This document shows, piece by piece, positions 3,647-12,824 of a DNA stretch of 25,388 nt. The notes below the pieces were generated by a model, which was given only the letters and a program-made list of their open reading frames with translations, ran no database searches and had not been told where the DNA came from. Origin of the DNA: a virus; IMG/VR virus record IMGVR_UViG_3300021483_000006, positions 1 through 25,388 of that record. One strand, 5' to 3'. Position 1 is the first letter of the stretch, and every line of letters begins with the position of its first letter. The position numbers and the translations under genes are program-made.

Positions 3647-3680
3647 GCTCGGTGTTCCTTTTGGAGCATCGGGCTTTTTT
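3647..3680 (+). terminator. Rho-independent terminator
   Basis: GCTCGGTGTTCC (3647-3658) pairs with GGAGCATCGGGC (3663-3674) over 12 bp including G-T pairs, with a TTTT loop and six T after the stem. Confidence 0.88.
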
Positions 3681-3700
3681 ATTTTGAAAGGAGGATTGAA

Positions 3701-3934
3701 ATGGCTACTTTTTACATTCATGTTCAAGAAAACAAAACTACAATATCTTTCATAGACGAGCACTACCGTTCTAATGGTGAAGCTCCTTTAGCGTATAGTG
3801 CAATGGAGGTATGGATATATAAGGGATATTGTTTTATCGGGATCATCCGAAATGGTTTTATACATTGCTCGTCATGGAAATATAAAGTCAAATTCGGCAA
3901 GCTTGTTGTAGCTTGTCGGGTAGACGAGATTTAA
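3701..3934 (+). CDS. Paralogous family protein A (77 aa)
   Basis: ATG 3701 follows GAAAGGAGGATTGAA. The product (MATFYIHVQENKTTISFIDE start) shares with the genes at 5042 and 5741 a common pattern: N-terminal I-H-V-type strand, then P-L-x-Y-S near residue 30, x-V-x-[IM]-Y, a Y/F-I-G turn, G-x-[IV]-x-C-x-S-[WF]-K-Y (CSSWKY here, about residues 57-62), and a final strand FGKLVVACRV. It is predicted to be a compact all-beta protein with a conserved Cys and Trp. Function unknown. Three diverged copies in 2.3 kb imply repeated duplication and selection to keep them. Confidence 0.85.
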   Translation: MATFYIHVQENKTTISFIDEHYRSNGEAPLAYSAMEVWIYKGYCFIGIIRNGFIHCSSWKYKVKFGKLVVACRVDEI

Positions 3935-3949
3935 AAAGGAGGTTTGGAG

Positions 3950-4048
3950 ATGTGGCAAATAGAAACTTTAAATAGGTTGTTAAAAACAAAAGAAATAATA
4001 GAAAAATCTCAGAATATGATGACTGAAGTAGCAAAAAAAGGGAGTTAA
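3950..4048 (+). CDS. Small helical protein, probable 5' part of a frameshifted gene (32 aa)
   Basis: ATG 3950 has AAAAAGGAGGTTTGGAG upstream. The frame gives a helical peptide, MWQIETLNRLLKTKEIIEKS then QNMMTEVAKKGS, and stops at 4046-4048. Just before the stop is a run of seven A followed by GGG (4033-4042). A shift of one base back there continues the same helical, charged sequence into the frame that runs to 4158. Confidence 0.65.
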   Translation: MWQIETLNRLLKTKEIIEKSQNMMTEVAKKGS

Positions 4049-6893: not shown

Positions 6894-7121
6894 ATGAATG
6901 AGAAACGAGTTATAGCACGGCGGATGGACTATCATTTCAGAGGCCTCACTGAAAAAGAAGCTTCTGAAGTGGTAGAGTTATGGGAAACGGGGCATTTGGA
7001 AAAAGTGCAACAAAAATATAACCTGTTTGAATGGGATAGTTGTCCTAGCTGTGGAGCTTTCATTATGTCAGATGGCCGTATTACAGGATGTATTATTTGC
7101 AATCATAGTTTTGTGGAGTAA
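6894..7121 (+). CDS. Zinc-ribbon protein (75 aa)
   Basis: ATG 6894 follows AAAGGGAGGAAATTTAAA and begins one base after the previous stop. The N-terminal 48 residues are helical (GLTEKEASEVVELWETG). The C-terminus carries two knuckles, CPSC and CIIC, about 17 residues apart, forming a rubredoxin-like zinc ribbon. The first codons (MNEK) and their upstream bases copy the start of the 6212 gene. Function unknown. Confidence 0.78.
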   Translation: MNEKRVIARRMDYHFRGLTEKEASEVVELWETGHLEKVQQKYNLFEWDSCPSCGAFIMSDGRITGCIICNHSFVE

Positions 7122-11367: not shown

Positions 11368-11431
11368 GCCTACACGGGCAAACAGGTCCCACCTTTCCTC
11401 CTCCCTTTCTTGCCTGTTTGTCTGTGTGGGC
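11368..11431 (+). promoter_or_regulatory. Uninterrupted 19-bp RNA hairpin with anti-Shine-Dalgarno loop
   Basis: Bases 11368-11386 pair without a gap with 11413-11431 (16 Watson-Crick and 3 G-U pairs). The 26-base loop is all pyrimidine except three bases and contains CCTCCTCC (11397-11404), which complements the GGAGGA ribosome site (11445-11450) of the next gene. There is no T run, so it is not a simple terminator. It lies between the recT stop and the 11454 start, where it could hide the ribosome site. Confidence 0.75.
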
Positions 11432-11453
11432 AATTTTGAATATGGAGGATAAA

Positions 11454-12053
11454 ATGACCCGTAAAGAAATGATTAAAAGGTTAATGAAAGGTGAAGACCC
11501 ACTTGATTTGGGTATTGAGAAATGGAGAGATATAGTTGAACATTTAGAAAAAATTAGCAGTTTTGAGGAATATGATGAGAGACTTGAAAAAGGACAATAC
11601 AATTGCGCATTATGCGAGTTATATTTAAAAAACAAATGCGTTAAATGTCCTGTTAAAATAGCAACTGGTTTTACAGAATGCCGTAAAACACCTTATCACC
11701 GTTTTTGGTGTGCATGGGAGATTAAAGACCTTGAAGGAATGCGAGAAGCAGCAATGGCTGAATTAGAATTTTTGAAATCTTTGAAAAAGAAATTTCCAAA
11801 AATAACATATATCTTGGTTAAAAGATATACGAAATGTGAAGAATTAGATGAATTTGATGTTGATAAAACTTGTCAAATTTCTATACGGTTTGAGGCAAAT
11901 TTTTGTGGTTGTAATGCCGAAGGCAAAACAGTAAACGAAGTCTTAAGTAAACTAGAGAAAAAAGTTAATAAAGATATAAGCTCTTTGCCAGTATATATAG
12001 CATATTTTCTCAATGGACCTTATGTAACTCTTTTCCCATTTGAGAAAGATTGA
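11454..12053 (+). CDS. Cys-cluster protein with HicB-like tail (199 aa)
   Basis: ATG 11454 is chosen because GGAGG (11445-11449) precedes it. Residues 50-85 contain NCALCELYLKNKCVKCPVKI followed by a Cys and a TPYHRFW motif: C-x2-C-x7-C-x2-C-P, a probable metal site that recurs in the gene at 19671. The C-terminal part (FCGCNAEGKTVNEVLSKLEK, about 157-176) resembles the second half of a HicB fold (compare GCGAEGKTVDEALEKIWEAK in the 18631 gene). The gene is bracketed by two structured RNA elements that share sequence, suggesting special control. Function unknown. Confidence 0.75.
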   Translation: MTRKEMIKRLMKGEDPLDLGIEKWRDIVEHLEKISSFEEYDERLEKGQYNCALCELYLKNKCVKCPVKIATGFTECRKTPYHRFWCAWEIKDLEGMREAAMAELEFLKSLKKKFPKITYILVKRYTKCEELDEFDVDKTCQISIRFEANFCGCNAEGKTVNEVLSKLEKKVNKDISSLPVYIAYFLNGPYVTLFPFEKD

Positions 12054-12079
12054 CAAATTAAAAATAATTTGGTAAGAAT
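12050..12079 (+). promoter_or_regulatory. Promoter for the 12085 small RNA
   Basis: TTGACA (12050-12055) overlaps the stop codon of the preceding gene. A 17-18 base spacer leads to TAAGAAT (12073-12079), with an extended -10 (TGG before it). The palindrome AAATTA-aaaa-TAATTT (12055-12070) fills the spacer. The predicted transcription start falls at about 12085-12088, exactly where the RNA structure begins. Confidence 0.7.
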
Positions 12080-12084
12080 AAATC

Positions 12085-12195
12085 AAGATGAGCGGAGGGT
12101 ATCTTAGAAATAAAACCCGCACAGGCAGGCAAGGCTATCTTTTGGCCTCCGCTCATGTCAAAAAGTCTTGTTCTGTCTGTGTGGGTTTTTTTGTT
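12085..12195 (+). ncRNA. Putative small RNA: pseudoknot plus intrinsic terminator
   Basis: The segment lacks any open frame. ATGAGCGGAGG (12088-12098) is perfectly complementary to CCTCCGCTCAT (12146-12156). Between them starts a second, longer stem: 12112-12129 pairs with 12072 bases further downstream, namely 12172-12189, and continues after one bulged base with 12130-12135 pairing 12165-12170. The second element of the first helix lies in the loop of this hairpin, so the two helices interleave as an H-type pseudoknot or compete as alternative folds. The hairpin ends in TTTTTTTGTTTTT. Promoter, structure and terminator together define an RNA of about 105-110 bases. It could act in trans (its loop carries an anti-Shine-Dalgarno CCTCC), or as an attenuator for the HNH gene at 12210. 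Confidence 0.72.
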
Positions 12196-12197
12196 TT
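12112..12197 (+). terminator. Long-stem intrinsic terminator
   Basis: AACCCGCACAG (12114-12124) pairs with CTGTGTGGGTT (12177-12187) and the stem continues inward for about ten more pairs around a 29-base loop. The 3' side runs into 12 T in 13 bases. It would end the 12050 transcript 15 bases before the 12210 gene. Confidence 0.8.
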
Positions 12198-12209
12198 TAG
12201 GGAATTAAA

Positions 12210-12824
12210 ATGGAAAAATGGGAAGAAGCATTAAAAGAAGCCTGTTTATTAGTGCCTATTGAAGTAAATCAAACAGAAGTCTTTAACAGAGTAAGAGAAT
12301 TTTTAAAGCTAAGACAATACGAAACTACTTGTTTAGTTTGTGGAAAAACTATAATTGTGAATAATAAATGGGATTTTAAGAATGCAATTTGTCCTGAATG
12401 TAAAAAAATACGAGACGAAAAACGCAAAGAAAGAGAAGAAAGAGCTGAATTAGAACGCCAAAAAAGAGAAAAAGAAAGACAACATAGAAAACTAGCAAAT
12501 TTTGGGACAGGTAAAAATACTCCAGCTTGTGACTTTTATTTATTATTTGATTTAATAACCGAAAAAGATATAGAAATCTTAACCAGTATGCCTTATAAAA
12601 ATTTTCTTAAAACCCTTTATTGGCGAGTTGTATCTAGATATGTCAAATGGAAAAACCCTACTTGCTCGTTATGTGGTTCAGACCAAAATTTAAATGTTCA
12701 TCATAAAACCTATGAAAATAGAGGGAGAGAATATTTAACATGGAAAAAAGATTTGATAGTGCTATGTGATAATTGCCATAAAAAATTTCATGATATATTT
12801 CAGGAGGAGTTAAATGAGAAATGA
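12210..12824 (+). CDS. HNH endonuclease with N-terminal zinc finger (204 aa)
   Basis: ATG 12210 follows TAGGGAATTAAA. Residues 41-64 hold CLVC and CPEC knuckles, residues 68-95 a strongly charged helix, and residues 152-194 the HNH module: CSLC, then LNVHHKTYE (H164, H165), then DLIVLCDNCHKKFHD (C186, C189, H190, H194). The His pair and the later His are the catalytic and metal ligands of the beta-beta-alpha-metal nucleases, and the two CxxC pairs hold a structural zinc. In phages such enzymes are either homing nucleases or packaging/replication helpers. Lying next to the origin gene and away from the terminase, it may be a homing nuclease or recombination helper. Confidence 0.83.
   Translation: MEKWEEALKEACLLVPIEVNQTEVFNRVREFLKLRQYETTCLVCGKTIIVNNKWDFKNAICPECKKIRDEKRKEREERAELERQKREKERQHRKLANFGTGKNTPACDFYLLFDLITEKDIEILTSMPYKNFLKTLYWRVVSRYVKWKNPTCSLCGSDQNLNVHHKTYENRGREYLTWKKDLIVLCDNCHKKFHDIFQEELNEK

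Follow-up and report, generated by a model that had tools for sequence, protein, structure and literature searches.

The CI RNA of phage P4 and the c4 RNA of phage P1 are immunity RNAs that derive from a leader near replication genes, where complementary segments control termination; both pair with separate targets in the leader. A phage RNA with its own promoter and terminator is IsrK from the Salmonella prophage Gifsy-1, which is found both as a short RNA and at the head of a longer mRNA made by read-through, and which pairs with the downstream orf45 region (PMC4825925). The RCd22-abiF locus of a Clostridioides difficile prophage, for which read-through was measured, consists of a SigA-type promoter, an RNA of about 100-130 nt and an intrinsic terminator, after which the next ribosome-binding site follows without a promoter between; the downstream gene is a constant toxin (AbiF) and the RNA carries abiF motifs (RF03085) (PMC12373285). 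The antitoxin RNAs of type III systems (ToxI, CptI, TenpI), for which pseudoknots are known (PMC5086642), consist of tandem short repeats; an intrinsic terminator separates them from the gene of an endoribonuclease toxin. The put RNA of phage HK022 has about 70 nt, two stem-loops and no terminator (PMC9378689).

Here we analyzed a stretch of 25,388 nucleotides of viral DNA (positions 1 to 25,388 of the metagenome-derived IMG/VR record IMGVR_UViG_3300021483_000006), which is called the window in the following. On its plus strand a predicted promoter is followed by a structured RNA, a terminator and, without a further promoter, a start codon. This is the layout of a leader, and the RNA appears to work most like a promoter-ncRNA-terminator leader. 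The order of elements is like that of RCd22-abiF, and the RNA resembles IsrK in having its own promoter and terminator. The differences are also clear. In RCd22-abiF the toxin gene is constant and the RNA has abiF motifs, whereas here the gene varies, the RNA has no match in Rfam and the terminator loop forms a pseudoknot. A search for an AbiF system found no RF03085 motif in the window and no Abi toxin downstream; HNH, GIY-YIG, MT-A70 or replication proteins are encoded there instead. Unlike IsrK, the RNA shows no tuned pairing with the downstream ribosome-binding site: when loop and arms of the pseudoknot were paired with that region, its own arms were no better than the arms of other types described below. 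The RNA also differs from P4 CI and P1 c4 RNA in that it has only one complementary segment, which is located at its own 5' end. We found no published description of this topology, in which the 5' end is locked into the loop of the RNA's own terminator.

The starting point was a preliminary description made from the sequence alone, which proposed that an 11-base segment at 12088-12098 pairs perfectly with 12146-12156 and that this helix interleaves with a second stem. This is correct: in the window sequence the 5' arm (AUGAGCGGAGG), which begins about 3 nt past the predicted transcript start, is the exact reverse complement of the 3' arm (CCUCCGCUCAU) within the terminator loop. The arm pair is the sole GC-rich 11-mer inverted repeat with a spacing of 30-70 nt in the window; dinucleotide shuffles gave 0.03 per window. 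The second stem had been given as about 22 pairs between 12112-12135 and 12165-12189. It does run into a T tract, but it is slightly narrower, with 21 pairs between 12115-12135 and 12165-12186 and one bulged U at 12171, and continues into TTTTTTTGTTTTT. The stem ends in UUUUUUUGUUUUU, with the U tract of the terminator at 12186-12198; all homologues likewise have a T-rich stretch behind the stem on the plus strand. Folding of the RNA region gave a minimum free energy z-score of -5.8, and none of 200 shuffles was as stable. The pseudoknot arm is joined to the terminator stem by a linker (12099-12114), the length of which varies between 14 and 21 nt. A second, A-rich linker (GUCAAAAA, 12157-12164) is conserved apart from the length of its A run and one C in homologue L130; it could possibly serve as a minor-groove strand. 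A weak candidate for an inner stem, formed by UUUUGG at 12140-12145 and its partner at 12158-12163, had 88% of cells paired without a compensatory change, and it is the only helix that conflicts, for geometric reasons, with the full pseudoknot.

The two major helices have no bases in common and can co-exist in one molecule. For this reason we reject the suggestion that the first helix competes with the terminator in a mutually exclusive switch; the pseudoknot could influence termination only through kinetic or steric effects. In line with this, no antiterminator built from bases of the terminator stem, as in attenuators of the riboswitch type, was found, the pseudoknot using separate bases.

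Relatives of the RNA were gathered by scanning with a degenerate pattern of the arms, and also with the replication and RecT proteins; they come from uncultured phages, all from metagenomes. Including the window, this resulted in 10 distinct RNA sequences, eight of which (the window among them) belong to phages with related recT genes. The other two, L101 and L130, represent another group with an unrelated replication protein. The sequences fall into four arm types with the 5' arms AUGAGCGGAGG (I), AUGAUGGAGGG (II), AUGGUGAAAGG (III) and AUGGUGGAAAG (IV), and in each sequence the loop arm complements the 5' arm without a mismatch. For counting, variable linkers were removed from the alignment and the arms were held in register; the full sequences were each checked against the fetched DNA. 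All 11 pairs of the pseudoknot helix are Watson-Crick pairs in 10/10 sequences, with no G-U pair. The preliminary description had named arms that vary without compensating changes as evidence against the structure; in the related phages 7 of the 11 pairs are changed on both sides, a count that treats related sequences as separate, so the independent covariation events are fewer than counted, at least three or four. None of 500 shuffles reached the covariation score of the helix. When the partner was shifted by 1-3 columns, pairing fell from 96% in register to 35-57%. A fully compensated change is also seen between near relatives: L101 and L130 have a closely similar downstream gene and differ in two arm positions on both sides.

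The terminator stem is conserved in a different manner. Here 97% of cells are paired, with eight pairs changed on one side and two on both sides, mostly via G-U. Since these changes run mainly through G-U pairs, the folding strand must be the plus strand; a reading on the minus strand is ruled out by the G-U pairs and by the T tract, which is consistent on the plus strand only. Template switching at a quasipalindrome was considered as a source of the perfect arms and is unlikely, given that the terminator arms, which are closer and longer, are imperfect.

A descriptor search for a 9-nt arm, its complement in a terminator loop and a T tract in 1.09 Mb of fetched DNA returned the pseudoknot-RNA family as the only consistent group, and a scan with the promoter pattern added no further member by descriptor among the loci listed. 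Searches with a covariance model detected a single copy of the RNA per phage record and, as the one related element, hairpin A (see below). No family of Rfam 15 was found in the window at gathering score; with relaxed thresholds the best E values were about 0.5-1, all far below gathering. There was no convincing blastn match of the RNA to annotated phages and plasmids and no match of the 3'-stem pattern in a scanned genome collection. There is hardly any doubt that a conserved pseudoknotted RNA exists, and on the evidence of the alignments it is a real RNA family that was not described before. It is a phage ncRNA with direct covariation support and an unusual, strongly conserved topology.

The preliminary description had also placed a promoter with an extended -10 box at the start of the structure. 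The homologues agree with this prediction. The -35 box TTGACA (12050-12055, plus strand) is identical in 10/10 homologues, and TGGTA of the extended -10 box TGG-TAAGAA (TGGTAAGAA, 12070-12078), which follows after a 17-nt spacer, is kept in all of them; the spacer is altered in the most divergent ones. Transcription is predicted to start at about 12085, and the fold, kept by compensatory changes, supports the proposed pseudoknotted RNA of about 105-110 nt (approximately 107 nt) with a promoter and a terminator of its own. A general promoter scan of the window found promoter-like sites no more frequently than in shuffles of this AT-rich DNA and is thus uninformative, so the case for the promoter rests on conservation. 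The elements are those of a housekeeping-type promoter that is presumably active. A recT search in genomes gave distant matches only, for which reason no host was assigned. In L130 a 12-bp tandem duplication (AACCAACCTAAA) within 1580-1640 lengthens the spacer and breaks the spacing between the -35 and -10 boxes; in this phage the extended -10 box alone would remain.

The RNA is located after recT and hairpin A, from which an additional gene separates it in some cases, and ahead of the replication region; both neighbours vary. In the window the next gene (12210-12824, plus strand) encodes an HNH endonuclease of 204 aa, and its start codon lies 24 nt past the stem. L024 also has an HNH gene at this site, while L042 and L045 have a GIY-YIG gene and L043 has a 78-aa ORF. 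An MT-A70 methyltransferase, the N-terminus of which we read as possibly ParB-like, follows in L047, and replication proteins follow in L049, L048, L101 and L130. Although the genes differ, 21-34 nt separate the stem from the following start codon in all nine sequences measured. This leaves no room for a second promoter behind the cassette, and the downstream genes therefore need transcripts that pass the cassette terminator, either from its own promoter or from farther upstream. L101 and L130 carry the cassette, whereas their close relatives L128 and L129 lack it as a clean block of about 170 bp. The alignment of L130 with the latter two extends up to position 1579 and resumes at 1751, so that the missing block is essentially the unit from promoter to terminator. 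The fact that L128 and L129 lack it means that the cassette is modular and dispensable for having that replication gene. The RNA travels as a small cassette before differing genes.

From its position, control of the downstream genes via leakage of the terminator is the best reading, and we see about an even chance that the cassette is a mobile promoter-ncRNA-terminator leader from which a stable pseudoknotted RNA is released and which restricts how many transcripts continue into the replication genes. The cassette of about 150-170 bp, composed of a housekeeping-type promoter, an ncRNA of about 107 nt and an intrinsic terminator, would act as the leader of whichever gene comes next, that is, of replication genes or of genes inserted ahead of them. 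During synthesis the 5' end of the RNA would pair with the 11-nt segment of the future terminator loop; the 21-bp stem would then close, and at the U tract the majority of transcripts would stop. With both ends structured, the RNA set free in this way should be stable, and the simplest role of the pseudoknot would be to lock and protect its 5' end. A minority of read-through transcripts would express the downstream replication operon, and in this way the cassette would set both the level of the operon and how much short RNA is made relative to mRNA. As an attenuator of this kind, it would be a transferable control module for the replication genes of phages. Several points speak against such a reading. 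With a terminator as strong as predicted, there could be next to no read-through, and the downstream genes may use farther promoters. Also, a purely attenuating leader would not need a conserved pseudoknot, and the lost -35/-10 spacing in L130 and the uninformative promoter scan count against it as well.

The main competitor, which we regard as possible although clearly less probable, is a stand-alone sRNA acting in trans on mRNAs or proteins of the host or the phage; the terminator would then merely end the RNA, and the downstream genes would be transcribed from elsewhere with antitermination. This would agree with the fact that the RNA is kept while both neighbour genes change and comes and goes as one block. 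The preliminary description had pointed to CCTCC in the loop as an anti-Shine-Dalgarno word, and C-rich loops are indeed a feature of sRNAs that bind Shine-Dalgarno sites. The word does lie in the loop, but the C-rich form occurs in only two of the four arm types (the loop words are CCUCC, CCCUCC, CCUUUC or CUUUCC) and is paired with the RNA's own 5' arm in the pseudoknot; furthermore, the loop sequence is free to change as long as the arm follows. No co-varying target or partner of the loop was found elsewhere in the phage genomes, and a free sRNA gene would not need the constant site right before a start codon. Hairpin A, with its conserved loop (CCUCCUCCC) that is complementary to several phage ribosome-binding sites over 10-12 nt, would again favor an action in trans.

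The conserved ends of the helix suggest another idea. Its outermost three pairs are AUG x CAU in 10/10 sequences, while 7/8 inner pairs vary; this invariance would be explained by a leaderless start codon that is gated by the pseudoknot. With the AUG about 0-3 nt past the transcript start, an early ribosome would trail the polymerase and keep the terminator open; otherwise the pseudoknot would hide the AUG and transcription would stop. The nearly constant distance from the -10 box to the AUG is consistent with this, and the AUG frame is open through the terminator in 9/9 sequences tested, the other frames usually containing stops. On the other hand, stops are scarce in the terminator region whatever the frame, some of the stops in frame 1 are due to ATGA itself, stops occur near the next start codon in all frames and there is no Shine-Dalgarno sequence. 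The peptide is not conserved either: indels shift the frame in its middle between relatives and there is no third-position bias of substitutions, which also led us to reject a conserved small protein across the RNA. We consider such a gate rather improbable. The broader notion of a new RNA switch, in which a leaderless AUG is held in a pseudoknot with the terminator loop, immediate translation decides on transcription of the replication operon and the arm pair could also be a type-specific tag between phages, seems unlikely too, if slightly less so. If the 5' AUG does matter, the RNA would be a compact sensor of translation. Still less credible is an element at the DNA level, with the arms as inverted operator or recombination sites for a protein of phage-specific specificity. 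The arms are always exact copies without G-U and gene exchange occurs at the cassette edges, as expected for such sites; but there are no extra copies of the arms in the phage genomes, one arm is always in the loop of a hairpin that, judged from its G-U pairs, must form as RNA, and the type of rep does not track the arm type, rep of L024 and rep of the window being 82% identical while their arms differ.

Two further classes of RNA come close to being dismissed. The put-like antitermination RNA raised in the preliminary description, or another RNA that modifies RNA polymerase for processive antitermination, would be highly structured and begin directly at a promoter in the early phage region, as the RNA does here and as put lies just downstream of an early promoter. 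However, this RNA has one long terminator stem plus a pseudoknot rather than the two hairpins of HK022 put, ends in its own terminator, which makes identity with put unlikely, and has no Rfam match. Equally far-fetched appears a role as RNA antitoxin, be it in a type III system or in one resembling AbiF. The order of promoter, RNA, terminator and gene is the same, with a terminator between the RNA and the next gene as in type III loci, and pseudoknots occur in those antitoxins; but the RNA is present in a single copy per phage record searched, without tandem repeats and without a match to RF03085, and it has no constant partner, since the next gene may encode an HNH, GIY-YIG, methyltransferase or replication protein or the 78-aa ORF.

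The same phages contain a second, related RNA element. Hairpin A (11368-11431, plus strand) is located directly behind the stop codon of recT and occurs in all relatives that carry recT. Its 19-pair stem belongs to the same sequence family as the terminator stem of the pseudoknot RNA, but it lacks the T tract and the pseudoknot. The loop is CU-rich and highly conserved (CCUCCUCCC; CACCTTTCCTCCTCCCTTTCT), and its complementarity to several phage ribosome-binding sites extends over 10-12 nt. In the window (11418-12053) and in the relatives, flanking genes are swapped between otherwise similar phages, and the junctions fall either at hairpin A or at the pseudoknot RNA; the two elements look as if they were borders for cargo genes.

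Two other repeat patterns were seen in the fetched DNA. In L009, an unrelated contig, tandem GGAGCGGAGG repeats face CCTCCGCTCC repeats across a T-rich spacer at 6970-7070 and matched the arm pattern; they probably have no relation to the pseudoknot RNA. In L101 (about 1510-2000 and 2010-2887, both on the minus strand) and L128 (about 3650-3950), 9-nt repeats ending in CCA alternate with 9-nt spacers in an 18-nt period. The array in L101 adjoins a Transposase_20-like protein of 292 aa directly ahead of the replication gene; the pair resembles a TIGR array and its solo-Nop Tas protein (compare PMC12045711).
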